From Alcaligenes faecalis (GTDB lineage Bacteria; Pseudomonadota; Gammaproteobacteria; Burkholderiales; Burkholderiaceae_B), in NCBI RefSeq assembly GCF_009497775.1, contig NZ_CP031012.1, positions 3,747,235-3,811,234 on the forward strand: 64,000 nucleotides of DNA, written 5' to 3'. Of this stretch, positions 15,145-48,430 are shown piece after piece; within the stretch, counting starts at the first letter, position 1, and the number at the start of each line of letters is the position of its first letter. A model generated the notes under the pieces. That model was not told the DNA's origin. It ran no database searches and was given only the letters and a program-made list of their open reading frames with translations. The translations under genes were made by a program, and so were the position numbers.

Positions 15145-16377
15145 TTACACAGGCCGGTCTTTAGTCGCCAGGTGATTTCTCTCAAGCTCCAAGGCCACAT
15201 CCAAGGGGCCTTTCCCTACAAGCAACAGAGTTAGTCCCGCCGCAATCATGTCTTTTGATGGGGGTACATGTCCGTCGCCCCAATCACCTTCCCAATAGGC
15301 AACTTTTTGGTTGAATGACAGAACATCCTCTGATGCTTTCTCACCAACCCCAAATTTTTCCAAAAAGGGTTTGGCATGGGACTCGACGTGCCAGTCACTC
15401 TTATTTTGCAAATATAAAATAGAGCGTTGTCCCACCATAACAGAAGCACGAGAGTCCAGGCTATAAATGACTCCAGATGTATCTAATGTGCTTTGTATAT
15501 CCGCAGAACCAGAAAGCGAAGGGAATGCCACATCCAAGTAACGCTGTACCGATTTAGGGGTATAGCGCGACAGTGACGTTTGCGGATTCCACACAAATGC
15601 TGATGCACGTGGTGTTTGAATCAAACTCAACGTGAGTAACGATGCAAAGCCTCCACCAGACCCTCCCATCAGGATCAAATGTGCTCCGGTTTGCTCAACA
15701 AAGGCATCCAGCAAGCCTGCGATACGCTTTGGAAGGTCTACAAAGCCCTCATGGCCTGCATACCAACCCAAAAAAAGTCGATGTGATCGAGTCAACGAAG
15801 GATCAGCGACCGATATCACCGGAGCGCCAAGTTTTTTTGCAATCTCGACTCCAGAAAAAAATGGTGCCGAAGTCCCTTCCCGAGATGTCAGAGCTCCACT
15901 GAAACAAACCAAAACTGCCGGACTGCTTGCTAACTTATCCATACCACTGAGCAGAAGGTCTGCATGAAGCTCACCTGCTGTGAAGTGATACAACCCATCA
16001 ACAAACTCCTCCTCCACCCAAGGAGCGCCTAAATCACGCTCAAATAACGGACGTTGGCTCCAACGTCTTAAATCATAAGGGGGGCCATTTTGTACGACGC
16101 GTTCCGAGTCCAGTGTCCTAGTGGAAGGGCCAGCACTTTCAGTGGCCGCCTTTTTTATAAACACCCGGGCCTGATAACGCCCTGCAACTCCATCGTTAGC
16201 AAACTTTGCAGTCAGGCTCTTTTCATACCAACGATGGGCTACCCGAACGCCATTTCTAAGCAAATAAAAAGCGTAGGTCACACCCTCGGAAGATCCTGCA
16301 GGTACCTTAAATTGAGCAACCCAATTTTGACCATCCAAGGTTAAGCAGACCTCGGGGGTTTCAACAAACTCAACCAT
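15145..16377 (-). CDS. GxSxGG alpha/beta-hydrolase-like capsule-locus protein
   Basis: 410 residues from ATG 16377, which has AAGGG nine bases upstream; the ATG three codons earlier abuts that site. The first ~80 residues look like a small beta-sandwich ('YAFYLLRNGVRVAHRWY', 'GRYQARVFI'). The rest has a nucleophile elbow 'LMGGSGGGFASL', 'WNPQTSLSRYTPKS' and a late 'GHVPPS' that could supply the catalytic His. It shares these last three blocks with the protein at 26111-26902. No signal peptide is visible. An esterase or acyltransferase acting on the polymer is a guess; I do not recognise a named family member. It is the promoter-distal gene of the capsule locus. Confidence 0.6.
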   Translation of the reverse strand: MVEFVETPEVCLTLDGQNWVAQFKVPAGSSEGVTYAFYLLRNGVRVAHRWYEKSLTAKFANDGVAGRYQARVFIKKAATESAGPSTRTLDSERVVQNGPPYDLRRWSQRPLFERDLGAPWVEEEFVDGLYHFTAGELHADLLLSGMDKLASSPAVLVCFSGALTSREGTSAPFFSGVEIAKKLGAPVISVADPSLTRSHRLFLGWYAGHEGFVDLPKRIAGLLDAFVEQTGAHLILMGGSGGGFASLLTLSLIQTPRASAFVWNPQTSLSRYTPKSVQRYLDVAFPSLSGSADIQSTLDTSGVIYSLDSRASVMVGQRSILYLQNKSDWHVESHAKPFLEKFGVGEKASEDVLSFNQKVAYWEGDWGDGHVPPSKDMIAAGLTLLLVGKGPLDVALELERNHLATKDRPV

Positions 16378-16489: not shown

Positions 16490-18037
16490 TCAGCCCAAAG
16501 ATACTCCACTAAAGCACATCCACTCTCGCGCCAGATCATGAATCGCCGCATCCCGATGCGGCGTTCTTGTCTGACCCTGCGTGGAGTTCCAGATAAAGTA
16601 ATCCACATCTCCACACGGAGTCCCCAGAGCTGCGTAGACCGAGGGCATGATGGGGACGTGGTCGCCATACCAGCACAGGCTGGCGGGCCTATCCGATGCA
16701 CTCAAGGCTCCGCGCAAACGTGTCAGCATGGCATCTGCATTGCGGATATGGCGCAAGTAAATCGTCAGGTCCTCACAACCTTGCGGAGGTGGTTGATGGT
16801 ACAAGGCATCGATATCACCCGCAGCGACTTTTTCCAGATGCAAAGGCCCGTGATTCTCCATCGTGATCACATGTATGAATACCGGCCCTGTGGCCTGCTC
16901 CAGCACACTGGCGACTTTATCCGCCACCGCCAGATCGCCAATATAAGGGCCGGTACGCTCCACATCGGCAAAAGCCTTGATGTCCAGAAACTCGTCAAAA
17001 CCAAATAGCGGAAATACTCGATTACGCTGGTAAAAGCTGGCGGGGTAAGGGTGAATACAAATTGTCCGGTAGCCCTGCTGCTTCAACCAGGAAGCCAACG
17101 TCGCCACCGACCATCCCGCACATACGGCGCGATAGGGGTTGAAGCGGTGCACACCCAGAGCACTGTTTTCAATACCGCTCAAGAAGGAAAACTCCGAGCG
17201 CACCGTGTTGGCCCCCCAGGCGGGAACCTGCAAATATCCACTGGCCACCGCTTCGGATTTGAAGCGATCAAACTCCGCCAGAATCTCTGGCCGAATCCCA
17301 TCAGATATCCGCCGAGCATCAAAGAAAGACTCGCTTTGTACTGAAACCAGATGAGGCAGATCGGCTGAGGAATCCGCGCCGGCCAAAACAGACGCGGGCG
17401 TTGAGGCAGCACCTGCAAAAGGAGAAGACAAGCTTGGGCGCTCCCGCCCTTGCTGCCAATAACGCCAGAAACTGGCTAACAGCCCCAGGGCCTGCACATC
17501 CTGCTCCGGTGCAATCTGCACCATCAAACGCGCGCTATTACCCCAAAGCAGCAAGCCAAGACTCAGCACAGCAAGCAGAGCCAAGGCTCCCCATTGCGCT
17601 GTCCAGGCAGCCCGCAAGGCGGGCACTGCTTCCAGCCATAAACCAATCGTCAAAGCAGCAATAAAGCCCGCTGCTGCCAGAAAGAACTTCCCCCACCCCA
17701 GAAAAGGAATATAGAGCCGAGGGTGACGGATCGCATCCGTAAAATACTCGTAGTCCTGGAACACAAAGGCTTCACGCAAAGCCTTGAACTTGGCGTTGCT
17801 GACCACGACCAGCAGCAGGAAAAACGCGCACAGCAAGGCCGTGGCAAAGATAGGCCGCCCCAACACGAAAACCAGCACGACATACGCCAAGCCATACAGG
17901 CCAACATGCAAAGCCCAGGCCGCCGCAGGACGACGCAAGCTGGCTGCCGTTTGCAAGAAACGCTCCAGCCCAACTGTCAGGGCCAGTCCCAACAAGGCCG
18001 CCAGGATTGCACTCCAGAATCCGGGCTCAAGCGTCAT
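16490..18037 (-). CDS. LTA-synthase-like sulfatase-fold phosphotransferase (RkpI/WcbQ-like)
   Basis: 515 residues: about five transmembrane helices (6-170), then a periplasmic alkaline-phosphatase/sulfatase fold. Metal and nucleophile residues typical of the LTA synthase/OpgB family are visible: 'SVQSES' (Glu236), 'GANTVRSEF' (Thr278 as likely nucleophile) and 'WYGDHVP' near residue 470. Such enzymes move phosphoglycerol or phosphoethanolamine from phospholipids to a glycan. The start overlaps the SDR stop by 11 bp. Together with the SDR, PKS and oxoamine synthase it resembles rkpGHI/wcb sets; that correspondence is from memory. Substrate unknown. Confidence 0.75.
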   Translation of the reverse strand: MTLEPGFWSAILAALLGLALTVGLERFLQTAASLRRPAAAWALHVGLYGLAYVVLVFVLGRPIFATALLCAFFLLLVVVSNAKFKALREAFVFQDYEYFTDAIRHPRLYIPFLGWGKFFLAAAGFIAALTIGLWLEAVPALRAAWTAQWGALALLAVLSLGLLLWGNSARLMVQIAPEQDVQALGLLASFWRYWQQGRERPSLSSPFAGAASTPASVLAGADSSADLPHLVSVQSESFFDARRISDGIRPEILAEFDRFKSEAVASGYLQVPAWGANTVRSEFSFLSGIENSALGVHRFNPYRAVCAGWSVATLASWLKQQGYRTICIHPYPASFYQRNRVFPLFGFDEFLDIKAFADVERTGPYIGDLAVADKVASVLEQATGPVFIHVITMENHGPLHLEKVAAGDIDALYHQPPPQGCEDLTIYLRHIRNADAMLTRLRGALSASDRPASLCWYGDHVPIMPSVYAALGTPCGDVDYFIWNSTQGQTRTPHRDAAIHDLAREWMCFSGVSLG

Positions 18038-18800
18038 AACCGATCTTGCTCAGAATAAAGACGGACAAGCGGGCGGGCAGTACAGCCAGAAACCAGCAAC
18101 CCAGGTTCAAAGGGAAAGGAAAGCTGATGCGCGCTTTATTGGCTTTCAGACCACGAGCAATACGCTTGGCGGCTTTTTGCGGGGTCCAGAGAAACGGTTT
18201 AGGGCCCGGCATGGCATCGCACATGGGCGAGCTAACGTAGCCTGGCATCACCACATTGACCTTGATCCCCTCCGGGGCCAACCAGCCGCGCAAGCCTTCA
18301 CCATAAGCTTTGACAGCCGCCTTGCTGGCGCTATAGGACGGAGTGGTGGGCAACCCAAAGTAAGCGGCCAAGGAGCTCATCAGGGCAATCTGACCGCGCC
18401 CTCTCGCTCGCATGGCTGGCAGCACAGATTGCACGACGCGCAGCGAGGCCTTCACATTGATATCCAGCAACAGTTCGGTATCTTCCCAGGCCTCCGGCTC
18501 GCCGTTGGGACCTACATGGATATTCATGCCAGCATTCACGATGACAAGATCAAACGCAGCGCATTGCGACAACCAATCATGCAAGGCATCCAGATCACGC
18601 AAATCCAGCTGATGCGTCTGTACCTGCGCACCCGCCTGCCGGCAGCGCTCGGCCAAAGGCTCCAGAATCGCGGCATTGCGACCATGCAAAGTCAGCTCTG
18701 TACCGGGCTTGGCGTAGTAAAGCGCCAGCTCGCCACCAATGGCACTGGTGGCACCAGTAATCAGAATCCGTTCCTGCCTTGCTGGTTCAGCTACGCCCAC
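18027..18800 (-). CDS. SDR family oxidoreductase (RkpH/WcbP-like)
   Basis: 257 residues from GTG 18800, chosen because AAAGGAG sits exactly five bases upstream and an ATG at 18842 would overlap the previous gene by 56 bp. NAD(P) motif 'GATSAIGGELA', 'NAGMN', and catalytic Ser ... Tyr-x3-Lys as 'YSASKAAVK'. The C terminus is hydrophobic ('WFLAVLPARLSVFIL'), suggesting membrane association as in long-chain 3-ketoacyl or 3-ketosphinganine reductases. Beside an alpha-oxoamine synthase in the same operon, reduction of a 3-keto amino lipid is a reasonable inference but is not shown. Confidence 0.82.
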   Translation of the reverse strand: MGVAEPARQERILITGATSAIGGELALYYAKPGTELTLHGRNAAILEPLAERCRQAGAQVQTHQLDLRDLDALHDWLSQCAAFDLVIVNAGMNIHVGPNGEPEAWEDTELLLDINVKASLRVVQSVLPAMRARGRGQIALMSSLAAYFGLPTTPSYSASKAAVKAYGEGLRGWLAPEGIKVNVVMPGYVSSPMCDAMPGPKPFLWTPQKAAKRIARGLKANKARISFPFPLNLGCWFLAVLPARLSVFILSKIGYDA

Positions 18801-20265
18801 GCGCTCTCCTTTCTTGAAAGGACCAGTACAAAACCATGCCAAAGCCTACGCAAACCGTCGCATTCAAGGGAATCAACAAGTAATTGCCCATGTGTATGGC
18901 CACATACAGGGCCAATGCCGAATACAGGAAGGTGAACACTTCACCAATCAGCAAATACAGGTTGATGCGGGGCTGTCTAGCGGCCTTCTCGCCTTCGCCT
19001 TTGGGGGTGCGGTTAAATTCCCCGTAGACCCTGAAAGCGGCGCGTACTCCACCGACAAAATAATACCAAGCCATGGGCGGGAACATGGCGACATACAAAT
19101 AGGTGTGCCACAAAGTGCCCAACACGCCCGGCCTGTCATCAAAACGCGCCCCTTTGCGAGCCCCAAAGGCATTATTCAAAGCCCAGACAGCGACCAGCAA
19201 GAAGAACAGCGGCGCGCCCCACTGCAAGACTACATGATCAAAATTCAACAAATAATTCAGCGGCAGGCTTAGCAAGATCAAGGCATAAATCGATGCCAGC
19301 ATGACCGATGAAAACATCATGGAAAACGCATGCATACGCTTCATCAGGGGCATGTCCTGCTGCCACATCTGCCCCAGATGTTTGAAGGCACTGTGAATCA
19401 GCCCCCGCCCCCAACGCTCCCGCTGTACACGGAAGGCGCTGATGTTCTCGGGCAAGGTGGACATGGACACCACGTCGCGCAAATAGGCATACTTCCAGTC
19501 ACCAAACTGGGCTCGATAACCCAGGTCCACGTCCTCGGTAATGGTGGAGGCATTCCAACCGCCCAAGGCTTCCACGCAAGCGCGTCGCCAGACACAGGAG
19601 CTGCCACTTAAAGAGGCCATGTCCCCATCTTCACTCAGCCCCACCGTCACATACTGCTGGTGGCCCATTTCCATGGCCTGAAAGCGAGTCAAGAAAGAAT
19701 GATCGCGGTTTTCATAGCCAATACCAGTCTGCAAAAAACCCAGTTTCTCGTCCCTGAAAGGCGGAATGGTTTTCTTCAAGAAGTCAGCTGGCGGCAAAAA
19801 GTCCGCATCGAAAATCGCAAAAAACTCGCCCTGGGAATGCTGAATACCGTGCACCAGATTCCCGGCCTTGTAGCCGGAGCGGTCTTCACGCGTAATGCGG
19901 CGGATTGGCACACCTTGTCGAGCACGCTGATCCACCTTGTTCTGGGCCAGCTTGGCCGTCCTGTCGGTAGAGTCATCCAGCACCAGAATTTCCAGCGCGG
20001 ACACCGGATAATCCAGGCGGCAAGCCGCATCAATCAAACGCTCAACAACGGCGGCCTCGTTATAAATCGGCAATAAAACGCTGACCTTGGGATACCAGTC
20101 CTGCTGCAAGGAGGCAGACGTCTGCACCAGTTCGCTTAGCTTGCGACGTTCCACCCGGCGCGAGATCAGCAGTACCCGCAGCTCCAGGACCACGTACAGG
20201 GCAAAGGCCCCAACAACCAGCAAGAACAGCGCCTGAATCAGGTACGCAAAAATACTCACAATCAT
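18787..20265 (-). CDS. Processive family 2 glycosyltransferase (CslA/cellulose-synthase-like)
   Basis: 492 residues. One N-terminal membrane helix (about 5-33), a GT-A domain with the full D, D, D, QxxRW set (VLDD 95-98, DAD 153-155, TED near 243-245, QRERW 281-285), then about five helices to the C terminus. This layout is that of processive beta-glycan synthases; spacing and the 'TITEDVDLGYRA' block resemble CslA-type mannan/glucomannan synthases. It may polymerise a neutral beta-linked backbone at the inner membrane. The start follows the previous gene by 15 bp; the stop overlaps the SDR start. Confidence 0.82.
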   Translation of the reverse strand: MIVSIFAYLIQALFLLVVGAFALYVVLELRVLLISRRVERRKLSELVQTSASLQQDWYPKVSVLLPIYNEAAVVERLIDAACRLDYPVSALEILVLDDSTDRTAKLAQNKVDQRARQGVPIRRITREDRSGYKAGNLVHGIQHSQGEFFAIFDADFLPPADFLKKTIPPFRDEKLGFLQTGIGYENRDHSFLTRFQAMEMGHQQYVTVGLSEDGDMASLSGSSCVWRRACVEALGGWNASTITEDVDLGYRAQFGDWKYAYLRDVVSMSTLPENISAFRVQRERWGRGLIHSAFKHLGQMWQQDMPLMKRMHAFSMMFSSVMLASIYALILLSLPLNYLLNFDHVVLQWGAPLFFLLVAVWALNNAFGARKGARFDDRPGVLGTLWHTYLYVAMFPPMAWYYFVGGVRAAFRVYGEFNRTPKGEGEKAARQPRINLYLLIGEVFTFLYSALALYVAIHMGNYLLIPLNATVCVGFGMVLYWSFQERRARGRS

Positions 20266-20280: not shown

Positions 20281-21366
20281 CTAGAAGCCGACCACATCAG
20301 CCAACTCCTGGAGGCGATGCTCCCAGGTGTGGAACTGGCGCACATAAGCTGCCCCCGCCGCCGCACGCTCACAGTCCTGCTTGGTGGGGCCTTGGCGCAG
20401 ACGGGCAAACAATTCACTGGCCTGCTCACGGGAATGCACCACGTGGCAGAAGTCACGGAAATAGCGATCCACCGCACGGCCAGGATTGGTCACCGCAATG
20501 CCCCCACTGGCCAGAATTTCCAGCAAGCGGCGCGAGCACATGGTGTCCGAGTCCGTGACCGAGTTCACGTTCAGGCACATCACATGCTCTTTGTAGATAC
20601 GCCCTGTCTCGCGATGCGGCACCTGGCCGTGCACCTGCACATGAGTCGAGCGCGGAAAGCGGAACTCGATATGCCGGGACAATCTGTCGTGATTTCTGTC
20701 GTAGGCATTCAGCTGCATCTGCGCATCCTCACAGGCCCCGAAAATCATGTCCAGAAAACGGCGACGCTCACTCAAGATACGGCGGTAATAACTGCCGGTA
20801 AAACAACCTTCCATGCGCGTGAACTCAAAGCCCGTGAAATTATGAAACGCAGGCTGATACGGCATGCTCAGGGTGTTCACGGGGACATCAGGGTTCAAGC
20901 GAGCACGGTAGCGCGGCAAACAATCGCTGTCCGTAGTGAAGACATAATCAAAGGCCTTGGCCACATCAATGAAGTGCTCGAAATACGCCCCGTCGTCCTT
21001 GTTCCAGAACACCGTGGGCACGCCCTGATCTTTAGCAAACTGCACAAGCTTGTAAATCGTGCGAGGAGTACGCAAACGGATCAGGCGTGACTGCTTGGCC
21101 AGCTCGTAACGCCACGCGCCTCCCAAGCCATGAAACACGGACTCCACAAAGAGCAGATCGGGCTTCCAGGAGGAGATGACCTCCTCGTAGTTACGTGGGC
21201 TAAGAATACGGATAGAGCACTCGGCCGACAGGCAATCTGCCGTGAAGTAGTCCGAGACCAAAGCCACTTTCAATTGCCCAAACTGCCCTGCAGGCTTGCC
21301 GTCTTCGCTGACGGTTGGGTGCGTATAGATGCGCGCCCCCAAAGCCCGGATTGCACGACCGATCAT
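20281..21366 (-). CDS. CgeB-like glycosyltransferase
   Basis: 361 residues, soluble. The blocks 'VPTVFWNKDDGAYFEHFIDVAKAFDYVFTTD', 'FTGSYYRRILSERRRFLD' and the C-terminal 'RLLEILASGGIAVTNP' are those of CgeB/DUF3880-type GT-B enzymes, with the sugar-nucleotide site in the C-terminal half. Acceptor and donor cannot be read from the sequence. It overlaps the upstream GT4 by ATGA and is related in its core to the N-terminal half of the protein at 28449-30368. Confidence 0.75.
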   Translation of the reverse strand: MIGRAIRALGARIYTHPTVSEDGKPAGQFGQLKVALVSDYFTADCLSAECSIRILSPRNYEEVISSWKPDLLFVESVFHGLGGAWRYELAKQSRLIRLRTPRTIYKLVQFAKDQGVPTVFWNKDDGAYFEHFIDVAKAFDYVFTTDSDCLPRYRARLNPDVPVNTLSMPYQPAFHNFTGFEFTRMEGCFTGSYYRRILSERRRFLDMIFGACEDAQMQLNAYDRNHDRLSRHIEFRFPRSTHVQVHGQVPHRETGRIYKEHVMCLNVNSVTDSDTMCSRRLLEILASGGIAVTNPGRAVDRYFRDFCHVVHSREQASELFARLRQGPTKQDCERAAAGAAYVRQFHTWEHRLQELADVVGF

Positions 21367-22679
21367 GAGTTAGCCCCGGCCGGCAAAGCATGCACCACAA
21401 AATCAGCCCAGCTGCGACGCTGTGTGGCTTCTTCACGCGCCAAAGCGCCATCCTGCGCCAAGACGTCCGGGCCTGCCTGAAAAGTCTCCTCCAGCACTCG
21501 GGCCAGATCCTGCACATCACCCGCTTTAAAAAAGCGCACCGAGCGACATGGACCAACTTCATCCTGAAACACGGGCAAATCCGGCACCAGAACAGGCTTG
21601 CCCATCGCCATCGCCTCGACCAGCTTGATGGGCGGCACAATGCGGCACACTTCAAAGGGGCGACGAGGAATACACACCAGCGCGGCTTTAGCCTGCAAGC
21701 TGCGAGCCTCTTCAGGCGAGACTCGACCGGCAAACAGCACGTGCTTTTCCATACCCAGACTTTGCACCTGAGCCTGCAACTGAGCGCGCGCCTCCCCATC
21801 CCCAATAATGGTCAGGGTCAAATCCTTGCCACGGCCTGCCAGATCCGCCACGGCGTCGATCAGAACATCCAGCCCTTCATAAACAATCAGGGAGCCAGCG
21901 TAGACAATCGTATTGGGCTGCACATCCTGGGCAGCGCCAGGAACAAAGCGCGAGGGGTCGACACAATTGGGCATCAGTCCCATGCGTGCGGGATCCACAT
22001 TCCAATGCTGGCGAGCGTATTGGCCCAACTGCTCGGAAATCACAAACAAACGGTCTGCCTGGCTGGCAACCAGACCTTCCAGCTCCAAACCCTGCTTGAA
22101 ACCTTGGGAATCACGGAACTCCGGCATGCGGGAGGCTCGGCTCAACTCCCACAGCCCGCGCATTTCATATTGGAACGGAATGCCTAACTGACGTGCAGCG
22201 ATCAAGGCAGGCAAGGCATTGACGTGATTGGAAGCGGCATGGATGACAGCGACGCGTTGCTTGATGGCTTCCTGGGCGATGGAGGTGGCGGCTTCTATGG
22301 CGAACTGCATGACAGGGCGATTATTGGCCGGACGTTGCACATGAACGTACTGCACTTGATCCACCACCGTTGTCTGCACCGACGCATCAGCCAATCTATC
22401 TTTGCGATCCCACGGGTAACCAGGGCGAGTCAAGACACACACATCGCCGCCTGCTTCCTGCAAAGCCTGAGCGATAGCATGTGTACGAGTGGTATAGCCG
22501 CTTATGTGATAAGGCAAGGCACTGGCCGCCACATACAGCATGCGGCCTGGTATCGGCTCATAAGGGGTTTGCACCGACCCACGCTGCTGCGTCTTGCGAC
22601 GCAACATTCGCACAGTCAAAAACCGATTAAAGGCTAGCCAGGGTTCTCCCAGCAGCCTTTGTAAAAATTTCAGCGCCAT
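21363..22679 (-). CDS. Family 4 glycosyltransferase
   Basis: 438 residues, GT-B fold. N-terminal domain: 'YHISGYTTRTHAIAQALQEAGGDVCVLTR'. C-terminal nucleotide-sugar domain: 'TIVYAGSLIVYEGLDVLIDAVADL', 'LTIIGDG', 'HVLFAGRVSPEEA' and the E-x7-E region 'PPIKLVEAMAMGKPVLVPD'. It is a retaining transferase acting on a growing oligosaccharide at the cytoplasmic face; sugar unknown. Four-base overlap with the CgeB-like gene downstream and four bases after the deacetylase upstream. Confidence 0.85.
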   Translation of the reverse strand: MALKFLQRLLGEPWLAFNRFLTVRMLRRKTQQRGSVQTPYEPIPGRMLYVAASALPYHISGYTTRTHAIAQALQEAGGDVCVLTRPGYPWDRKDRLADASVQTTVVDQVQYVHVQRPANNRPVMQFAIEAATSIAQEAIKQRVAVIHAASNHVNALPALIAARQLGIPFQYEMRGLWELSRASRMPEFRDSQGFKQGLELEGLVASQADRLFVISEQLGQYARQHWNVDPARMGLMPNCVDPSRFVPGAAQDVQPNTIVYAGSLIVYEGLDVLIDAVADLAGRGKDLTLTIIGDGEARAQLQAQVQSLGMEKHVLFAGRVSPEEARSLQAKAALVCIPRRPFEVCRIVPPIKLVEAMAMGKPVLVPDLPVFQDEVGPCRSVRFFKAGDVQDLARVLEETFQAGPDVLAQDGALAREEATQRRSWADFVVHALPAGANS

Positions 22680-22683: not shown

Positions 22684-23670
22684 TTAAACCTTTGCCTTCG
22701 CCTTCTTGTTTTTTTTCGGTGGAGGCGTGTACTGCGCTAACGATAAATCCACGGACTGCGGCGTGGATATCTTGCCTCGAGCATGCAAATCCAGAAACTC
22801 TGCTGTCGTGATCACATCGTAATCCTTGGTCAGGCGCGACAACATCTTGCGATACCCTTCCAGGCGACTATCGTCCCGGTACTCACCCAAACCGTTCTCA
22901 TCCCAATACAAAAGAGACCAGGAATGCAGCAAGAACACGGCAAAAGACGGGCTACCGCTAACAGCATTTAGCAACAAATTTCCCCACCATGGCCGGAAAC
23001 GGAAGTAGCGGGACTCTGGGTAAGTCAGCCGAACCCACCAATCTGGCTTACCTAACTTGCCCAGAATCCGCTTCTCGGTCATGGGGACCTCAAGGACACC
23101 ATTGGACCAAACATAAGGGTCATTGGTGGCCTCGCTATATATGCATTGACCATTGTGCACAGCACATACCGAGTTATTAAAAGACAGCGGAATACCCACT
23201 TCTTTCAATGCCCGGATCGTATCGGCATTCCAGCGGAATGAACCTGCACGATGCGCCAAGACCGGCTTTCCCGTTTGCTCTGTCAACAAATCTGCAAAGT
23301 GCCGAAAAACAAACTCGGCCCGAGCCTGGTCCGTGTACTGATTCATATACTGTGGACGATTGGACAAGCCATGCTCTTCCCAGAAGCTGTCCGGCAAGTA
23401 TTCAGGGTGCGTATGCAACTGTACATCCTGCCCCTGCTCATCCAGCCAGCGCACGACTTCCTTAAGCTCGTCCAGGTAAGAGTAGGCACCACACAAGTCT
23501 GTAAAAAACACATGCTTGGCACCGAACTCATCACCGATGCGGCACATCTCGGCCACCCCAGCTGTACCCTTCGGAAATCGCCCCCAGATCAGACGATTGA
23601 CGTGGTCCGCAGACGCGCGCTTGGGCAGCGCCTCCGTATCCACCGTAATCATTGCGTAGCGATCCCTCAT
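22684..23670 (-). CDS. Polysaccharide-deacetylase-like protein, copy A
   Basis: 328 residues without signal peptide. A NodB-like barrel with 'ITVDTEA' at the N terminus (possible metal Asp), 'QLHTHPEYLP' (paired His) and 'AHRAGSFRWN'. Copy B next door shares these blocks and most of the length, roughly half the residues by eye, so this is a tandem duplication. A lysine-rich tail (PPPKKNKKAKAKV) is unique to copy A. De-N- or de-O-acetylation of a cytoplasmic glycan intermediate is the family expectation. It overlaps copy B by four bases. Confidence 0.75.
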   Translation of the reverse strand: MRDRYAMITVDTEALPKRASADHVNRLIWGRFPKGTAGVAEMCRIGDEFGAKHVFFTDLCGAYSYLDELKEVVRWLDEQGQDVQLHTHPEYLPDSFWEEHGLSNRPQYMNQYTDQARAEFVFRHFADLLTEQTGKPVLAHRAGSFRWNADTIRALKEVGIPLSFNNSVCAVHNGQCIYSEATNDPYVWSNGVLEVPMTEKRILGKLGKPDWWVRLTYPESRYFRFRPWWGNLLLNAVSGSPSFAVFLLHSWSLLYWDENGLGEYRDDSRLEGYRKMLSRLTKDYDVITTAEFLDLHARGKISTPQSVDLSLAQYTPPPKKNKKAKAKV

Positions 23671-26053: not shown

Positions 26054-26110
26054 GGCTAATCCTAAAAAAACTACAATTTCAAATATAAAAAAGAAAAGCC
26101 ATACAAAAGA

Positions 26111-36834: not shown

Positions 36835-37493
36835 TTGGGAATTGAATCCTTGTAGGCACGAAGCGCATCATCAATCTCATCGAACCAATGCGCTTTTCCT
36901 TGATACAGCCAGACACCAGCCTGGCAGAATTGTTTTAAAGTTTTGTTATCGTGAGCCACCATGATCAGGCCCGCACGATTAGTCATTGTTTTGAAGGCCT
37001 CTGCAGCTTTTTTTCGAAAAGCAGCGTCCCCTGCTGCAGTAACCTCGTCAGAGATATACACATCAAAATTAAAGGCAAAAGACAAAGCAAACTGAAGGCG
37101 AGAGCGCATACCGGACGAATAGGTATAGACCGGCTCTTCAAACGCTTGCCCAAGCTCAGAAAAGTCTTTGATGAAAGCCAGGCGATCAACCAGGTCCTCT
37201 TGATGCCCATGCACTCGGCAGACAAATTTTGCATTCTGCCGGCCGGTCAACGTTCCTTCCAGGCCACCATTACCCATAGGCCAGGACACGCGACACAAAC
37301 GCTGCACAGAACCTTTATTGGGATGATCAACCCCACCGATCAAGCGCAATAAAGTGGATTTGCCTGCACCATTAGAGCCAATCAGCCCAACATTCACCTT
37401 AGGAGGTATCGTTAAGTTCACCCCTTCCAACACCCACTTGCCGACACCATGGGCAGTTTTGTAGCGCTTGTAGATATCGTTAACAATGATCAT
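36831..37493 (-). CDS. kpsT: Capsule ABC exporter ATPase KpsT
   Basis: 220 residues, exactly the size of KpsT/CtrD/BexA. Walker A GSNGAGKS (39-46), signature 'YSSGMRSRLQFALSFAF', Walker B 'FDVYISDEVTAAGD', switch His in 'MVAHDN'. There is no C-terminal carbohydrate-binding extension of the Wzt type, so export does not use a terminal sugar recognised by the ATPase; group 2-like export of a lipid-linked chain is expected. Overlaps both kpsM and kpsE by four bases. Confidence 0.96.
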   Translation of the reverse strand: MIIVNDIYKRYKTAHGVGKWVLEGVNLTIPPKVNVGLIGSNGAGKSTLLRLIGGVDHPNKGSVQRLCRVSWPMGNGGLEGTLTGRQNAKFVCRVHGHQEDLVDRLAFIKDFSELGQAFEEPVYTYSSGMRSRLQFALSFAFNFDVYISDEVTAAGDAAFRKKAAEAFKTMTNRAGLIMVAHDNKTLKQFCQAGVWLYQGKAHWFDEIDDALRAYKDSIPK

Positions 37494-40863: not shown

Positions 40864-43800
40864 TGATCAGTGATGTTCCTGTTTCTGCCAATCGCTGTAC
40901 ATCTTTCGCCAAGCCTTGCAAATCAGCCTCGGACATATCGTCCCCATGCTGACGTACGACATCGGCCACCAAATGCCCAGCGTCCTGCTCTGCCGAGTCC
41001 TCGCCACCGGCCGTCAGCTTGTCCACAATACGGGCCGCGACGTTCCAGACGGTGGGAGAATCGTTCAGTACCATGGCGGGCAACTGCACGCCAAAGCGTT
41101 GCTCCAAGCCCAAGGCCAATTCCACAGCCATCAAGGAGTCCATGCCCAGATCATGCAAGGAGCGCTGGGTTTCAATACGGTCTACTTCGGTGCGCAAAAT
41201 GTTGGCTACTTCTTGCGCCACCCACTCGGCCACCAAAGCGTGAATTTGCTCGGGCGTTTTACCAGCGATCAAGGCGTGAATATCCTGGCCATCGCTGCCG
41301 GAATCATGATCTTTCCGAGCGCGGTTCAAGATGGCAAAGCGTTCGCTCTGAGCCGAAGCCAGCAAGCGGGCCAAGGCATTCCAGTCGAAGTTGGCCACGA
41401 TGGACACTTCACCATTGACGGCCAGGACGCGATCCAGTTGATCCAGAGCCTGATCGGACTGCAAAGGCGCTTTGCCCAGACGTTTGCCCAAGCTGTCCTT
41501 CACGGTTTCATTACGCGTCAGGTAACCTGCGTCGCCAATCGGCCCCCAGGCAATGCAAGAAGCCGCCAGACCCAGGTTCTGACGCAAGCGCGTCAGACCT
41601 TCCAGGCCCGCATTGGCGGCTACATAGTTCGCCTGTCCGGGGTTACCAATAGAGGTCGTCACCGAGGAATACAGCACGAAGTGAGACAGCTTCAAATCCT
41701 GAGTGGCCAGGTGCAGATTCCATGCCCCTACCAACTTGGTTTGCAGCACCTTGTTCAAACTGTCCTGATCCATATTGGCGATCAGACGATCATCAAACAC
41801 GGCGGCAGCATGCAGCACGCCGGTCAGTGGGCTATCACCCGTCTGAATCTGCGCAACAACAGCTTGCACCGCTGCGGAATCCGTAACATCACACGCCACG
41901 ATTTGCACACGACAGCCTTGTGCCTGGAACTGCTCCAGCAGCTCTTGTGCACCAGGGGTATCGGCACCACGACGACCCGCCAGAACCAGAGAACGCACGC
42001 CACGCTTGACCAGCCATTGGGCTGAAGCCAAACCGAAACCAGACAAACCGCCCGTTACCAGCCACGTGCCTTGTCCAGACAAGTCGATCGGGGCCGCTAT
42101 TTGCTTTGTGAGCAAGTGGGGCTGGGCATCCTTCAAGGACACCACCAGCTTGCCGATGTGACGAGCCTGTTGCATGGCGCGGAATGCATCAACCACATGC
42201 TCGGCACCGAAGCTACGGTAAGGCAGTGGGAACAGCGCACCATCATGGAACAGCTCCATGACTTCCTTGAACAAACGCCCCGCCAGAGCTGGGCGTCCTG
42301 TCAGCAACTGGTCGGCATCAATACCGAAGTAGCTGATATTGCTCTTGAAGGGGCGCAGACCAATCGGCGTGTTCTCGAAGAAGTCACGCTTGCCCAGCTC
42401 CAGGAAGCGGCCAAATGGGCTCAAGACATCCAGACTGCGGCGCATGGCCTCACCTGCCAGCGAGTTCAGCACCACGTCTACACCTTCACCGCCAGTGGCA
42501 TCCATCACGTCCTGAGCAAAGCTCAAGCTGCGCGAATCGAACACATGATCAGCGCCCAGCAAGGAGGCGAATACGCGTTTCTCGTCCGTGCCAGCGGTGG
42601 CATAGATTTCAGCGCCCAAATGGCGAGCCAACTGAATTGCAGCAATCCCCACGCCACCTGCGGCGCCGTGGATCAGAACTTTTTCACCGGGCTGGATATG
42701 AGCCAAGTGCGTCAGGGCGTAGTACACCGTGAAGAACACAGTGGGAACGGTTGCGGCCGCTTCAAAATCCCAGCCTTCAGGCATGGGAGCGATCGCATCC
42801 GCACGTGTCACCACATGGCTGGCAAAGCAGGAGGAACCAAAACCCATCACCGGCTGGCCTACAGCCAAGTGGGTGACATCAGCACCAACCCGTGTAACCA
42901 CGCCCGAGAACTCCAGGCCCAGACTAGCACCGGCAAAACCGTTTTCTACGGCTTCGTCCGGCAACAAGCCCATCAAATACATCACGTCACGGAAGTTCAG
43001 GCCCGCTGCCATGGTACGGACTTCAACCTGATCCGCCGCCAGCTTGGGCGCCTGAACAGCTTGCCATTCCAGATTGCGCAGTTGTCCAGGCACCTGGAAG
43101 TCCAGCTTGAAGCAGGCATCCTGGCTTAGCTGAGCAGCCGCTGCCGGAGTGGCCTCTTCCAACACCAAGGTATGGCGTGCATCTTGAGACAGGACAATTT
43201 CGGTTGCGTTATCTGGCCACAGCAACTCCAGTTCCAGACGCTGTGCAACATCGCTGACACTCACATCACCGGCCAGATCAATCAAGGTGCAGGACAAGGC
43301 AGGCAGCTCGTTCATCACGACACGGCCAAAGCCCCACAAAGCCGACTGGGCTGGATTCACCGCCCAATCCAATTCCTCTGCCATCGCAGGCAAGGCACCA
43401 CCTTGCGTCACCAGGAACAAGCGGCTTGCAGCAGTACGGGCAGACAGGCTTTGAGTCAGGTTCAGCAGTTGCGCGCTGGTCTCGCTGACGGCAGCGGCAG
43501 TGTCAGCCCAACCCAGCATCTGCACCACGTTCAGCGTGCTTTCATCAGCCAAAGCATCGGCACTGAGTGGCCGGGTTTGAGCGCTGACCATTTGGCCAGC
43601 GGCTTCCAAACGGGCCTGTAAAGAATGAGCTTGAACTTGGGAAGCCTCATCAAACAACAACAGCCATTTCGCTGCAGCGACGACGTCCTGGTTTTGACTC
43701 GCTGGCTTTGTCGCGGCGCTGGCCAGAAGCAAGTAAGCACCTTCGCTCAACTCCAGAGCAGCAGGCTCTTGCGCAGTTTGCACCTGCTCAAAACCCGCTT

Positions 43801-46800
43801 GTTCCAAAGCCTGATGCCAGCCTTCAGGCGACAACAAAGAGGAGGATTGCGACTCACCAGCAGTGTGCCACCAGCTTTGGTCCAGGCCGGACAGAAAATC
43901 TGCATGCCAGTCAGGGTGACACTCGGCCAGCAGCAAGACGCCACCGCTTGCCAGCCACTGCTTGCTACGCAGCAAGGCAGGCGGCACATGCACGGTACGG
44001 TGCAGGCTGTGACGCAGAATCACGACATCAAATTGTGTATTGTCGGCCTGCTCCAGTTGCCACTCTTGCAGATCAAAACCGACAACCCGCACATTGGCCA
44101 GCGCATGATGTTGCGTCGCCTGGCGGGCCTGCAAATCAGCATCCGGCAAGGCCAGGACATACTCAAACTGGTCTTCGGACAGGCAAGCTGCCAAAGTCTT
44201 GGGCAGGTCACTAGGGCCTACGGCTACTTCCAGCACGCGCAGGCGCTGGGAAGCAGGCAGGTTCGTAGCCAGTTCTCGCAACTGGGCTTCCAGTGCCAGA
44301 CGTACACCCAGATACATGGGGTCATCGTCATACAACACTTCAACCACCGGGGAACGGCGCAAGGAGGCCAGCAGTTTTTCACCCGAAAGCTCACCACGCA
44401 ACAAGGCGGGCAGTTGGCTGCCAACCGAACCAATCTGGGTCAGTTGCGGCAAGCTGCTAGGCGAATCCTGCAAAATCGTGCGCCACAGGTCCTGGGCAGG
44501 AGGCATGTCGGCCTGGTCCACCACTTGGTAGCCTTCGCCCTCTTGCAGCAGCTCTTCACCGCGCAGCAGCTCGCTCATCCAGCGGCCATACGGGCTATTC
44601 AAGACTTCGGCGCTTAGCTCGGAAGGTTTTACGCCCTGGAAGGCTTCATAAATAAAGGACAGGCTCAAGGCATCCAGCAAAGGCAAAGTCTGCTGGAACC
44701 AGGTTTCGCGTTCTTGTTGCTGGTCAGCCAGTGCTGCCCAACCGCTTTGGGCCAGTTGTTCGGGCGCAAGCGTAACAGCGGCTCGCTCATCACGAGGATG
44801 AGGGCGCAGGTATGGCGTAATTTGCCAGTTGGAGACCGCATGGCGATCCTGACGCAAGAAATACGCGGCACGGAAACGGCAGGCCTGGGCGCTGGCCAGC
44901 AAACGGCCATCAGCACCATATAGCTCAAAATCCGCCAGTACCGAACGGGCGCTGCTACGACGCAGATGCGCACGGAAATGCGTCACCTGTCCTTCGGTGG
45001 ACAAGGTAAAGCGGCCTACTTTCACAGGCAGCAAGGCGACGCCTTGGCCTGCTTCAATATCGTGTGCGAAGAAATCCACCAAAGACTGGTAGCACACGTC
45101 CATCAAGGCCGGGTGCAACAGATAGCCGTCTTGCTCCAGGCTGACAGGCATCTCCAGTTCGGCATTCAGGTAAGCACCTTGAACCTGCGAGGCTTTCAAA
45201 CCCTGGAAGGCCGGACCGTAATCCAGCCCCAGAGAATGCGCCAGACGATAGTGTCGATCGCGGTCAATCTGCAATTCAGCCGAGGCCAAAGGCGAGAGCT
45301 CCGCCATAGGCATACGTTCATCCGAGGCCAGAATGCGACCACTGGCGTGTACCACCCACTCGTCCTGGCTCAGGCGCTGGCGGCTCTTGATATGAAAGCT
45401 GCCATCGCGCGGGCTCAACACAAAACGCAGGCTGCGGGCATGTTCACCGTCAAAAACCAGCGGAGCCAGAATATCCAGCTCGTCCACCAGGATCAGGGCT
45501 TCGCCCAGCCACTCACGGGCTGCGGCTAAAGCCATTTCCAGGTAAGCGGCGCCCGGATACACCATGGCTCCGCCCACTTTGTGGTCAGCCAGCCAAGGCA
45601 AAATCACCGGGTCCAACACGTTTTCCCAGCTGATATCGCTATCAGGCAAACGCCAGCCCAACAAATCATGCACACGGCGGCGCTCGATAGAATGCATTCC
45701 TTCAGTGCTGGACTTGTACCAGTGGCGCTCACGCTGCCATGGATAGACAGGCAGATCCACTGGATTGCCAGCCACGGGGAAACGGGCTTTCAATTGGGTC
45801 GGCAACAAGGCCAAAGTATGCAAAGCCGTATCGGCCAGACGCTGCGGGCCGTCGTCATGCTTGCGCAGACTGGACAGCACCACACCCTGAACATCATGCT
45901 GAGTCAGGGTTTCACGGATATAGCGCTGCAAAATGGCGTGCGGGCCAATTTCCAGAAACACGCGGCAGCCCTGTTTAGCCAGGCAGGCAATGGCCTGCTC
46001 GAACTGCACGGGCTCGCGAATATTGCGCCACCAGTAATCCACGCCCAGCTCTTGCGGGGACAGTTCTTCACCCGTAACGGTCGAAACAAAACGGGCTTGT
46101 GGTGCCTGTTGGCCGGGCTGCAAATCGCCCAGGCTCTTTTCCAGATGCGGCAACAAGCCATCCATATAGGGGCTGTGAAAGGCGTAATCCAGATCCAGCA
46201 GACGGAAGAAAACGCTTTGGCCTTCCAGAGCAGACTGAATACGTTGCAAGCCTTCCAGACTGCCGGACAAAGTGATATTGGAGGGGCTGTTCACACCCGC
46301 CACATTCACGCCCAAGTCTGCACCCAAGCCTTCCAGCAAAGTACTCACCGCTTCCAGCGACAGACCAATAACAGCCATCCGACCTTGGCCACGAGTCAGA
46401 CCTTGAGCCTGACTACGGGCACAAATCACGCGTATGGCTTGTTCCAGATTCAGGGCTCCGGCCGCCCAGGCGGCAGCGATCTCGCCCACACTGTGGCCAG
46501 CCACGGCATCGGGTTCAATACCATCTTCGCGCAGCATGCGCGTCGCAATAACCTGTACGGCAAACAGCAAAGGCTGAGCGACTGTGGTGTCATCCATGCG
46601 AGAAGCAGCTGGCTCGGCCTGCAGTTGCTCCAGCAGCGAGAAACCCGCCAAGGGCTTCATCATGGCATCCAGTTCGGACAGCAAAGCCGCGAAACGAGGG
46701 GACTCGCGCAACAAGGTCACGCCCATGCCCAGCCACTGTGCTCCGTTACCGGCGTAGACAAAGGCCAGTTGGCCTTCTTTGCTCAGGGCATCTACAGTTT

Positions 46801-48430
46801 GCAGACCTTGAGGAGTCTGGCCTTGCGCGTAAGCACGCAATTGCGCCACGCCTTCTGCAACCGTTTCGGGCTGAATGATCAAACCACGAGCCAAGGTCTG
46901 GCGACGGTGAGCGACAGCGTAACTGACATCGTAAAAATCTTGATCTGTCTTGCCGTTCAGCAAGTCAGCATAATTACCCGCCTGCTCGCGCAGGGCGGCT
47001 TCCGTTTTGGCCGACAAGACCAAAGGTGGCAAACCCGCGTTCGGCAGTGTCACCGATTGGCTTGTTGTCGCGACAGGAGCCTGCAACAGGACGTGGGCGT
47101 TGGCACCACCAAAGCCAAAAGAATTAAGACCCGCAACCAAAGGCTTGCCATCGTTGCGCTGCAGTTCGCGGCCCTGGGGCAGCAGCTCCAGATTCAAGCC
47201 ATCAAAATCAATGGCAGGATTAGGGGTCTTCAAGTGCAAAGCAGGTGGCAAGGCCTGATGCTGCAAAGCCAGCACCGTTTTGACCAAACCGGCCATGCCG
47301 GAGGCCGATTCCATATGCCCCAAGTTCGCCTTGACTGAACCAATAGGCAAGCGCTGTTCGCGTGATTTGCCATACACCGCACTGATCGCGGTGGTTTCAA
47401 TAGGATCACCAACTGCAGTACCAGTACCGTGGGCCTCTACAAAGTCCACCTCACCCGCAGTCAGGCCACTGCGCTCCAGCACGGAACGCATCAACTCAAT
47501 TTGTCCCTGACAGCTGGGAATGGTAATGCCGGTCTTGCGGGCACCATCGGCATTCACGCCGGTTGCCAAAATGACGGCCTGTACTTGATCGCCATCGGCC
47601 AGGGCTTGCTCCAAGGGCTTGAGCATCAATACCGCACCGCCCTCGGAACGCACATAGCCATTACCGGCTGCATCAAACGCCTTGCAACGGCCATCTGCCG
47701 ACAACATCGAGGCTTTGGTAAAGCCGACAAAGGGATAAGGATGCAGCAGCAGATTAACGCCGCCCACCAAAGCAGTGGAGGCCTCGCCATTGCGCAGGCT
47801 TGAACATGCTTGGTGCAAAGCGACCAAAGAAGACGAGCAGGCGGTATCCACCGCCATGGACGGTCCGTGCAAATCGTAGATGTAAGACAGACGATTGGCC
47901 GCAATACTCATGGTATTGCCGGTCATCATATGGGCGGTCAGGCTGGCCAGATCATCCAGGCCACGCATGCCGTAATCCAGGCCGGAAATGCCGACATAAA
48001 CCGCACAGTCACTGCCGGCCATGGTGGACGGCAAGACGCCCGCATTTTCCATGGCCTCCCAGGACAGCTCCAGCAACAAACGCTGTTGGGGATCCAGCCA
48101 GGCGGCCTCACGAGGGGAAATGCCAAAAAAGTCTGCATCGAACTCGTCGATGCGCGATAAGACGCCAGCCGAAAAAGTGATGCTGCGGCCAGGTTCGGAC
48201 CTTTTGTCGTGTTGCAATTCAGTCGTCGCCCAGCGATCCGCAGGGATTTCCGTAACCAGGTCACGCTTTTCAATTAAGGCATTCCAGAACTGGTCGGGCT
48301 GCGACAGGTCGCCCGGAAAGCGGAACGCCATACCAATAATGGCGATTGCTCCAGACGCAGTATTGCTTTTACTAATATCCGTACGGGATGCTTCCAACTC
48401 CTTAGCACCCTTGCCTATATTTTGAGACAC
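40856..48430 (-). CDS. Fully reducing type I polyketide/fatty acid synthase (RkpA/WcbR-like)
   Basis: 2524 residues, GTG start with GGGTAGGG upstream. Order: KS (~27-450; Cys198, His334, His372), AT (~555-850; GHSVG with Ser647; YAFH suggests malonyl use), DH (~920-1200; H950-x8-P959, Asp1111), a methyltransferase-like region (~1220-1560) whose SAM loop is degenerate (LEVAVGPSD), ER (~1760-2080; 'GAAGGVGIAAIQLA'), KR (~2110-2290; 'VTGGLSGFGLA'), ACP (~2400-2480; Ser in 'LGMDSLMAVEL'). No thioesterase or docking partner, so it probably works iteratively to make a saturated acyl chain and hands it to the downstream oxoamine synthase. It is the first gene of the capsule operon. Confidence 0.93.
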   Translation of the reverse strand: MSQNIGKGAKELEASRTDISKSNTASGAIAIIGMAFRFPGDLSQPDQFWNALIEKRDLVTEIPADRWATTELQHDKRSEPGRSITFSAGVLSRIDEFDADFFGISPREAAWLDPQQRLLLELSWEAMENAGVLPSTMAGSDCAVYVGISGLDYGMRGLDDLASLTAHMMTGNTMSIAANRLSYIYDLHGPSMAVDTACSSSLVALHQACSSLRNGEASTALVGGVNLLLHPYPFVGFTKASMLSADGRCKAFDAAGNGYVRSEGGAVLMLKPLEQALADGDQVQAVILATGVNADGARKTGITIPSCQGQIELMRSVLERSGLTAGEVDFVEAHGTGTAVGDPIETTAISAVYGKSREQRLPIGSVKANLGHMESASGMAGLVKTVLALQHQALPPALHLKTPNPAIDFDGLNLELLPQGRELQRNDGKPLVAGLNSFGFGGANAHVLLQAPVATTSQSVTLPNAGLPPLVLSAKTEAALREQAGNYADLLNGKTDQDFYDVSYAVAHRRQTLARGLIIQPETVAEGVAQLRAYAQGQTPQGLQTVDALSKEGQLAFVYAGNGAQWLGMGVTLLRESPRFAALLSELDAMMKPLAGFSLLEQLQAEPAASRMDDTTVAQPLLFAVQVIATRMLREDGIEPDAVAGHSVGEIAAAWAAGALNLEQAIRVICARSQAQGLTRGQGRMAVIGLSLEAVSTLLEGLGADLGVNVAGVNSPSNITLSGSLEGLQRIQSALEGQSVFFRLLDLDYAFHSPYMDGLLPHLEKSLGDLQPGQQAPQARFVSTVTGEELSPQELGVDYWWRNIREPVQFEQAIACLAKQGCRVFLEIGPHAILQRYIRETLTQHDVQGVVLSSLRKHDDGPQRLADTALHTLALLPTQLKARFPVAGNPVDLPVYPWQRERHWYKSSTEGMHSIERRRVHDLLGWRLPDSDISWENVLDPVILPWLADHKVGGAMVYPGAAYLEMALAAAREWLGEALILVDELDILAPLVFDGEHARSLRFVLSPRDGSFHIKSRQRLSQDEWVVHASGRILASDERMPMAELSPLASAELQIDRDRHYRLAHSLGLDYGPAFQGLKASQVQGAYLNAELEMPVSLEQDGYLLHPALMDVCYQSLVDFFAHDIEAGQGVALLPVKVGRFTLSTEGQVTHFRAHLRRSSARSVLADFELYGADGRLLASAQACRFRAAYFLRQDRHAVSNWQITPYLRPHPRDERAAVTLAPEQLAQSGWAALADQQQERETWFQQTLPLLDALSLSFIYEAFQGVKPSELSAEVLNSPYGRWMSELLRGEELLQEGEGYQVVDQADMPPAQDLWRTILQDSPSSLPQLTQIGSVGSQLPALLRGELSGEKLLASLRRSPVVEVLYDDDPMYLGVRLALEAQLRELATNLPASQRLRVLEVAVGPSDLPKTLAACLSEDQFEYVLALPDADLQARQATQHHALANVRVVGFDLQEWQLEQADNTQFDVVILRHSLHRTVHVPPALLRSKQWLASGGVLLLAECHPDWHADFLSGLDQSWWHTAGESQSSSLLSPEGWHQALEQAGFEQVQTAQEPAALELSEGAYLLLASAATKPASQNQDVVAAAKWLLLFDEASQVQAHSLQARLEAAGQMVSAQTRPLSADALADESTLNVVQMLGWADTAAAVSETSAQLLNLTQSLSARTAASRLFLVTQGGALPAMAEELDWAVNPAQSALWGFGRVVMNELPALSCTLIDLAGDVSVSDVAQRLELELLWPDNATEIVLSQDARHTLVLEEATPAAAAQLSQDACFKLDFQVPGQLRNLEWQAVQAPKLAADQVEVRTMAAGLNFRDVMYLMGLLPDEAVENGFAGASLGLEFSGVVTRVGADVTHLAVGQPVMGFGSSCFASHVVTRADAIAPMPEGWDFEAAATVPTVFFTVYYALTHLAHIQPGEKVLIHGAAGGVGIAAIQLARHLGAEIYATAGTDEKRVFASLLGADHVFDSRSLSFAQDVMDATGGEGVDVVLNSLAGEAMRRSLDVLSPFGRFLELGKRDFFENTPIGLRPFKSNISYFGIDADQLLTGRPALAGRLFKEVMELFHDGALFPLPYRSFGAEHVVDAFRAMQQARHIGKLVVSLKDAQPHLLTKQIAAPIDLSGQGTWLVTGGLSGFGLASAQWLVKRGVRSLVLAGRRGADTPGAQELLEQFQAQGCRVQIVACDVTDSAAVQAVVAQIQTGDSPLTGVLHAAAVFDDRLIANMDQDSLNKVLQTKLVGAWNLHLATQDLKLSHFVLYSSVTTSIGNPGQANYVAANAGLEGLTRLRQNLGLAASCIAWGPIGDAGYLTRNETVKDSLGKRLGKAPLQSDQALDQLDRVLAVNGEVSIVANFDWNALARLLASAQSERFAILNRARKDHDSGSDGQDIHALIAGKTPEQIHALVAEWVAQEVANILRTEVDRIETQRSLHDLGMDSLMAVELALGLEQRFGVQLPAMVLNDSPTVWNVAARIVDKLTAGGEDSAEQDAGHLVADVVRQHGDDMSEADLQGLAKDVQRLAETGTSLINE

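Follow-up and report, generated by a model that had tools for sequence, protein, structure and literature searches.

A candidate Kdo-free capsule attachment cassette in Alcaligenes faecalis

How is a capsule attached to the cell when its locus encodes an ATP-binding cassette (ABC) exporter and the genome lacks the enzymes that normally build the linker? A 2025 review describes the linker of poly-3-deoxy-D-manno-oct-2-ulosonic acid (poly-Kdo) as characteristic of ABC-exported capsules, with Vi as the notable exception (PMC12220298); the first Kdo is added to phosphatidylglycerol by KpsS and extended by KpsC (PMC11666461). We analysed a 64,000-nt stretch of Alcaligenes faecalis DNA (hereafter "the window"; positions 3,747,235-3,811,234 of the genome, which is a single contig of 4,159,911 bases with completeness 100), in which a single run of 21 capsule-type genes occupies 15145-48430 on the minus strand, as judged from the list of open reading frames (ORFs) and profile searches. 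The export proteins of this block (KpsM, KpsT, KpsE and an outer-membrane polysaccharide exporter, OPX) are those of group 2 ABC capsules, which use KpsC/KpsS to place poly-Kdo on phosphatidylglycerol, but this genome differs in lacking KpsC/KpsS and in having a lipid module that includes a polyketide synthase (PKS) and an alpha-oxoamine synthase (AOS).

Transcription runs from the PKS through AOS, OPX, KpsM, KpsT, KpsE, a 924-aa protein, WecB and WecC into a variable low-GC middle, and then through two deacetylase-like genes, a family 4 glycosyltransferase (GT4), a CgeB-type glycosyltransferase (GT), a membrane family 2 glycosyltransferase (GT2), a short-chain dehydrogenase/reductase (SDR), a protein like lipoteichoic acid synthase (LTAS) and a 413-aa protein. 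The initial annotation of this DNA, made from the letters alone, had listed KpsM/T/E, OPX, a PKS overlapping an AOS, an SDR and an LTAS-like gene, and all were found on the minus strand; the SDR, given there as 18027-18800, is here an ORF of 18027-18842 that begins with TTG, a later start near 18800 being possible. That annotation had mentioned neither a C-methyltransferase-like region in the PKS nor a conserved GT/deacetylase set at 18787-23670. We lean, if only slightly, towards the view that this set of deacetylase, GT4, CgeB-type GT and GT2, standing in the place of kpsS, would attach the capsule without Kdo to a lipid, likely of sphingoid type, made by the PKS, AOS and SDR.

Absence of KpsC/KpsS and a conserved cassette

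No KpsC, KpsS, KpsF or KpsU homologue had been noticed in the block, and KpsC/KpsS genes elsewhere in the genome had been named as what would count against a Kdo-free anchor. None of the 21 ORFs matched PF05159 (the KpsC/KpsS family) or, in a search covering the block, a KpsF/KpsU-type Pfam family, and a PF05159 profile search of the complete genome gave 0 matches, which excludes a KpsC/KpsS gene of this family elsewhere in the genome. To place this absence in context we used the best 80 of 584 confirmed AOS loci in a genome collection, and a set of 80 genomes consisting of our own and 79 of the 80 behind those loci (L045 was left out). PF05159 is present in 33/49 and 27/30 of the AOS-locus genomes and in 0/1 for our own. 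The PKS-AOS-SDR-LTAS module is therefore usually accompanied by KpsC/KpsS: 58 of the 80 genomes with this type of AOS have KpsC/KpsS and no cassette. The earlier suggestion that the PKS/AOS lipid module by itself replaces the Kdo-linker enzymes is ruled out by this count.

What does accompany the absence is the GT/deacetylase set. The CgeB-type GT, at 54-100% identity, is found in 11/50 genomes (our own included; 54-99% in 10/49 others) and in 1/30, and GT2, at no less than 64% identity, is found in the same 11 of 50 genomes, with one further match of 35% in G047 (the GT2 search covered the 50-genome set). Ten of the 12 carriers of the CgeB-type GT lack PF05159, whereas 58 of the 68 non-carriers have it (Fisher p 5.6e-6, kinship ignored). 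Among isolates only, with isolate or metagenome-bin status assigned from record titles, PF05159 is absent from 6/7 cassette genomes versus 0/27 others (p 5.2e-6, kinship again ignored). We also searched a sample of 399 genomes from the order, which partly overlaps the 80-genome set, and a sample of 369 from the class. In the order sample, 26 genomes are AOS-positive (E<=1e-130); the CgeB-type GT occurs in seven of the 399 at E<=1e-20, with at least 60% identity in four of them (our own included), and 3/4 of the AOS-positive genomes with the cassette GT at this identity lack PF05159, the fourth (G334) having a 66-bit PF05159 match on another contig. In the class sample the GT was found at E<=1e-60 in 1/369, our own genome only. 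Loss of KpsC/KpsS correlates with the deacetylase-GT4-CgeB-type GT-GT2 set, and not with the lipid module.

In contrast to the variable middle of the locus, this cassette stays constant. Its first gene encodes a polysaccharide-deacetylase-like protein (22684..23670, minus strand, as for all features of the block; TIGR03006 at 25 bits, below cut-off; PF01522 at E 0.052) and is present in all seven other loci whose sequence extended that far; the GT4 (21363..22679; PF00534/PF13439) has 59-63% identity in six other loci and 88% in A. faecalis AU14, the AOS of which is 98% identical to that of the block. The CgeB-type GT (20281..21366; PF13524) has an AlphaFold2 model of pLDDT 83 with a GT4-like GT-B fold, resembling BshA, Gtf3 and PimA. 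The BcsA-like membrane GT2, in the position of KpsS (18787..20265; PF13641, PF13506), has motifs DDS, DAD, TED and QRERW and five hydrophobic segments. It matches over cut-off, at 40.4 bits, the Pfam family-21 model, which we take to be that of the ceramide glucosyltransferase family; its best solved matches are cellulose synthases, and its QxxRW is of the processive type. The structure model of GT2 is weak (pLDDT 63), a quality at which a cellulose-synthase-like and a ceramide-glucosyltransferase-like mode of action are not separable.

Gene order offers a line of evidence that does not depend on these counts. We searched 155 loci, chosen for their AOS, LTAS or cassette genes, for matches to the query proteins and counted neighbours among these proteins only. 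The position immediately upstream of the SDR, on its own strand, is taken by KpsS in 23 distinct loci and by GT2 in eight (window included), with the match ends of the SDR and its upstream KpsS or GT2 lying -52 to +173 bases apart. LTAS is downstream of the SDR in 39/47 locus rows with an SDR match (some genomes appear twice). Other SDR matches follow the AOS (L001, L028/L127 and L145-L147), and in L004, L062, L074, L086 and L096 no mapped gene lies upstream of the SDR. The exchange is evident from a comparison of Zoogloea (L110), with the order PKS-AOS-KpsE-KpsM-KpsT ... OPX-KpsC-KpsS-SDR-LTAS, with Leeia, the Burkholderiales bin G005, Nitrosomonas europaea, Accumulibacter, Achromobacter pulmonis and A. 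faecalis, all of which have deacetylase-GT4-CgeB-type GT-GT2-SDR-LTAS; in three of these six loci the two ends are on different contigs. In the window, neighbours overlap by 8 nt (PKS/AOS), 56 nt (GT2/SDR, with the SDR ORF read from its TTG) and 11 nt (SDR/LTAS-like). Moreover, four of the 120 GT2 homologues among the matches listed are GT2-SDR fusions, the halves of which are 70-74% (GT2) and 63-67% (SDR) identical to the separate proteins of the window. A GT2 that is fused to the reductase completing the lipid, and that elsewhere occupies the position of KpsS, is most simply read as the transferase of the first sugar.

In a quickly built maximum-likelihood tree of 85 AOS proteins (12 labelled cassette, 48 Kdo and 25 unlabelled), the linker label changes six times, at least three of the changes being forced by starred branches; labels shuffled over the tree gave a mean of 11.2 changes, with 0/500 shuffles as low as the observed value. 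The cassette is also found in Achromobacter pulmonis and on a plasmid of Caballeronia, and in the tree A. pulmonis falls with Tepidimonas and Caballeronia with Paraburkholderia, both partners being of Kdo type; the position of Sinorhizobium meliloti, on a long branch, is unsure. The label changes and these two groupings indicate that loci have swapped their linker set but kept the lipid module.

The lipid module and its predicted product

The PKS (40856..48430) is an iterative, highly reducing enzyme of the RkpA/WcbR type, with ketosynthase (KS), acyltransferase (AT), dehydratase (DH), degenerate methyltransferase (MT), enoylreductase (ER), ketoreductase (KR) and acyl carrier protein (ACP) domains in that order, as assigned from Pfam domains and catalytic motifs. 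It is 44-62% identical to the PKSs of non-Alcaligenes cassette loci (59% to that of N. europaea) and 35% identical to the PKS of the S. meliloti rkp region. A pattern search found the active-site motifs for KS, AT, DH, ER, KR and ACP intact, and the catalytic motifs are kept in the 14 relatives inspected out of 71 aligned sequences. By contrast, S-adenosylmethionine (SAM) motif I of the C-methyltransferase-like region (PF13489) looks degenerate in the window and in those 14 relatives. Together these features predict a saturated and probably unbranched chain, the reading of the MT region as dead being drawn from one motif only.

The AOS (39523..40863; PF00155) is of the RkpG type, and its predicted role is to release the PKS chain onto an amino acid. 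It is 51.8% identical to the AOS of the S. meliloti rkp region and 72% identical to that of N. europaea; its best solved match is the serine palmitoyltransferase (SPT) 3a2b, at 222.8 bits, and the solved SphA also matches, at 79.7 bits, while the curated SPT models are matched below cut-off (303 bits vs 640 and 272 vs 500). It aligns with 3a2b, and in an alignment of 16 sequences residues H189, D262, H265 and K297 are invariant; we take these to be catalytic, including the lysine that binds pyridoxal phosphate. The SDR (18027..18842; PF00106), of the RkpH type, is the predicted 3-keto reductase, and the protein in the RkpI position (16490..18037; PF00884) is a putative LTAS/GacH-like phosphoglycerol transferase, with GacH as its best solved match (53.6 bits) and its ES, T-EF and YGDH motifs aligned. 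The initial annotation had inferred that PKS, AOS and SDR together make a long-chain amino alcohol. That interpretation is partly supported: the route fits the sequences, in the catalytic residues, the SPT match and the intact PKS motifs, but the role of the module as a stand-in for Kdo-linker enzymes did not hold. In fungi, a highly reducing PKS acts with an AOS and an SDR in making fumonisin and sphingofungin, the AOS unloading the PKS before the 3-keto group is reduced, and the product is secreted, whereas the product here is a predicted membrane anchor.

Closer to the window is the rkp-1 region of S. meliloti (L001), which has PKS, AOS, SDR and LTAS-like genes in the same order (the LTAS-like ORF, at 17367-18905, was identified by its motifs). 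The record gives no gene names, and we take the genes of this region to be RkpA, G, H, I and J. The S. meliloti region differs in having a PF05159 protein in the RkpJ position (412 bits) and an adjoining KpsF-type gene, neither of which is in the window block; the window has counterparts of A, G, H and I, lacks J, and has the GT cassette in addition. The rkp-1 products are described as making and modifying a specific carrier lipid by which the K antigen is secreted (PMC4881576), so the idea of a special lipid from rkp-type genes is not new. PKSs of the WcbR/RkpA family are likewise found in capsule clusters of the wcb type in Burkholderia and of the rkp type in Nitrosomonas; the rkp clusters of Nitrosomonas are mentioned in PMC3908369, the accessible portion of which describes no Kdo-free subtype or cassette, and the N. 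europaea genome (G007) has the cassette and lacks PF05159. The papers on the sponge PKSs SwfA and SupA concern other PKS groups (PMC3908369, PMC4245539). We found no description of the cassette in literature on rkp/wcb, on KpsC/KpsS/Vi and on capsule lipid anchors, a search in which subscription papers were mostly outside coverage. Since the enzymes that define the KpsC/KpsS group are missing, we assign the locus not to that group but to the rkp/wcb capsule type, as a Kdo-free variant.

We propose the following route. The PKS would build a saturated chain, unbranched if the degenerate MT region is dead, which the AOS would take from the ACP and condense with an amino acid (Ser, Gly or Ala), leaving the SDR to reduce the 3-keto group. 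The membrane GT2 would then put the first sugar on the amino alcohol, a step done elsewhere by KpsS with Kdo, and the CgeB-type GT and GT4, helped by the deacetylase, would finish a short conserved linker. The variable enzymes would build the serotype polymer, with N-acetylmannosaminuronic acid (ManNAcA) supplied by WecB/WecC; on the periplasmic side, the LTAS-like enzyme would modify the lipid or the linker with phosphoglycerol, and the lipid-linked polymer would be exported by KpsMTE/OPX. A broader and more tentative proposal, which we put at somewhat below even, is that such loci form a third chemical class of ABC-exported capsule, glycosphingolipid-like and with a PKS-derived long-chain base, in which Kdo and non-Kdo linker sets are exchangeable on one lipid module; with the same reserve, and as part of it, the first sugar would come from a GT2 like cellulose synthase and ceramide glucosyltransferase, sometimes fused to the 3-keto reductase. 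A capsule type that does without Kdo, with members in Alcaligenes, Nitrosomonas, Leeia, a Desulfovibrio and several metagenome bins, would join Vi as one more exception, and the role of the PKS-AOS-SDR set of rkp/wcb loci would be to supply the acceptor lipid on which KpsS or GT2 starts. The GT2-SDR fusion would be a single protein in which the reduction and sugar-transfer steps could both be examined.

Some loci vary around the lipid module. An LpxC-like deacetylase lies near the PKS and AOS in L003, L004, L046, L049, L051, L072, L077, L079-L081 and L084, mostly of Burkholderia type. GNAT/N-acetyltransferase genes are present in L002 (22543-23145), L003 (19252-19935) and L111 (16344-17048), with none recognised in the window block; bacterial ceramide synthase is of the GNAT type, so N-acylation of the base is possible in those three loci. 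In L145, L146 and L147 the SDR directly follows the AOS, and their genomes (G394, G369 and G178) have neither PF05159 nor the cassette GT; this AOS-SDR pair is possibly a separate long-chain-base pathway.

Alternative explanations

Several observations weigh against a Kdo-free linker made by the cassette. Two of the 12 cassette genomes have PF05159 (in G013 it shares a different contig with a second LTAS-like gene; in G004 it is a partial match of 26 bits), and ten non-cassette genomes, all metagenome bins by title, lack it. In the order sample, 17/22 AOS-positive non-cassette genomes have PF05159 and 5/22 lack it, against 3/4 of the cassette genomes (p 0.07, kinship ignored); the lowest AOS scores, 440-487 bits, belong to four of those five. 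A kinship-corrected pair test had three well-supported pairs only, too few to reach significance. Caballeronia insecticola has kept the cassette and its exporter, but GT2 there does not adjoin the SDR, which is at the opposite end, next to a PKS of Burkholderia type that is accompanied by an LpxC-like gene. A 41% homologue of the CgeB-type GT lies beside KpsC/KpsS-family genes in two genomes that lack this type of AOS at E<=1e-130 (G102:C1:494450-498669 and G205:C3:275696-282912), so this GT alone is no marker of a Kdo-free linker; in these genomes it may be a junction transferase. The QxxRW motif and the cellulose synthase match mean that GT2 may make a polymer rather than a lipid-linked sugar. 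Lastly, the poly-Kdo anchor of S. meliloti is phospholipidic according to the title of Fraysse 2005, as cited in PMC4881576.

Could the cassette act on the polymer instead? The PKS/AOS/SDR lipid would still be the anchor, but the product of the cassette would be a shared portion of the capsule polymer, made with a processive GT2 and a deacetylase that modifies the polymer, and the first-sugar enzyme would be encoded elsewhere. This is unlikely but deserves serious consideration, given the D, DxD, TED and QxxRW motifs of GT2, the cellulose synthases as its nearest solved relatives, and the deacetylase-like gene nearby, which recalls the deacetylase and GT pairs NodB/NodC and PgaB/PgaC. However, ceramide glucosyltransferase has D,D,D,QxxRW yet is not processive, the cassette is constant while the middle varies, GT2 is in the KpsS position, and a polymer synthase would leave the GT2-SDR fusion unexplained. 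We regard as improbable a second possibility, that export requires the rkp-type lipid as a membrane lipid in its own right, and that the polymer is built on a different acceptor, for example phosphatidylglycerol or undecaprenyl phosphate. S. meliloti rkp-1 mutants are said, in work by Muller from 2009, to make intracellular polymer still. The rkp-1 region is also described as necessary for export and secretion of the capsular polysaccharide (PMC4881576). Nonetheless, the genes for lipid and linker adjoin and overlap one another and in some cases are fused, and among the genes of the block we recognised no undecaprenyl-phosphate transferase that would initiate synthesis.

It is quite improbable that a Kdo linker is present after all and that the enzymes making it, perhaps the GT4 or the CgeB-type GT, have diverged beyond the reach of PF05159. 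The E. coli K13 capsule is reported to involve a deeply divergent retaining Kdo transferase (PMC12887879), and the CgeB-type homologue beside KpsC/KpsS in G102 and G205 points the same way, but the model of the CgeB-type GT resembles GT4-type GT-B enzymes, and no kdsA/kdsB/kpsF-type gene was recognised in the block, whereas the KpsC/KpsS locus L002 carries them. Very improbable, in our view, is an association between cassette and missing KpsC/KpsS that reflects shared ancestry, assembly gaps and sampling without functional replacement. The small number of independent pairs, the choice of the best 80 of the 584 loci and the metagenome bins among non-cassette genomes without PF05159 would fit such an account; the isolate counts, and the positional exchange and fusions, which are independent of those counts, argue against it. 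We reject a Vi-type anchor as scarcely credible, although the exporter parts match the VexA/B/D models below cut-off: NF011721 (PRK15174), presumably VexE, has no match in the genome, which moreover has the PKS/AOS module. Vi is likewise exported by an ABC transporter without KpsC/KpsS, but on a diacyl-HexNAc anchor made by VexE (PMC12220298).

Exporter, variable middle and neighbouring genes

The exporter consists of OPX (38321..39520; PF02563 and the SLBB domain PF22461), the ABC permease KpsM (37490..38278; PF01061; NF050053 at 137.5 bits, below the cut-off of 300), the ABC ATPase KpsT (36831..37493; PF00005) and KpsE, a PCP-3 protein (35647..36834; TIGR01010 at 271.9 bits, below the cut-off of 437.5). 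We considered whether exporter type goes with linker type and gave up the idea, as KpsM of 54-55% identity is also present in two PF05159 genomes (L010 and L028).

Next to KpsE is the 924-aa protein (32850..35624), which has a long coiled-coil-like stretch with an SMC coiled-coil match only; Pfam gave nothing for it, whole or as two halves at E<=1. By eye its C-terminus is SAM methyltransferase-like, with a SAM-like FGSG motif. Homologues lie near KpsE in other cassette loci (44% identity in A. faecalis AU14), and their length and identity vary between strains. The protein calls to mind WbdD, the ruler and terminator of ABC-exported O antigens, and from its sequence it is a possible chain-length ruler, which would be unusual inside a capsule locus.

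The UDP-GlcNAc 2-epimerase WecB (31724..32845; TIGR00236 over cut-off) and the UDP-ManNAc dehydrogenase WecC (30447..31727; NF008286 over cut-off) precede the variable, serotype-like middle (24677..30368; GC 38-43% over 24-30 kb). This encodes a bifunctional GT (28449-30368), about 30% identical to its counterpart in the A. faecalis AU14 locus, and a deacetylase/hydrolase (26917-28434), a hydrolase-like protein (26111-26920) and a GT4 (24677-26053), for which no match of at least 45 bits is listed in that locus. A second polysaccharide-deacetylase-like protein (23667..24629) follows, with 63.5% and 52.6% identity to the two AU14 deacetylase-like genes. The block ends with the 413-aa protein (15145..16386), alpha/beta-hydrolase-like by eye and of no Pfam family, which is 65% and 87% identical in two Alcaligenes loci and elsewhere, among mapped loci, has one 45-bit fragment. 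By eye, an alpha/beta-hydrolase-like GxSxGG-like stretch is common to the proteins at 15145-16386, 26111-26920 and 26917-28434, one of which also has a polysaccharide-deacetylase domain. Near the capsule block are a type VI secretion gene of the IcmF family (57143-60742) and a gene for a PEGA-domain protein (54614-56746).

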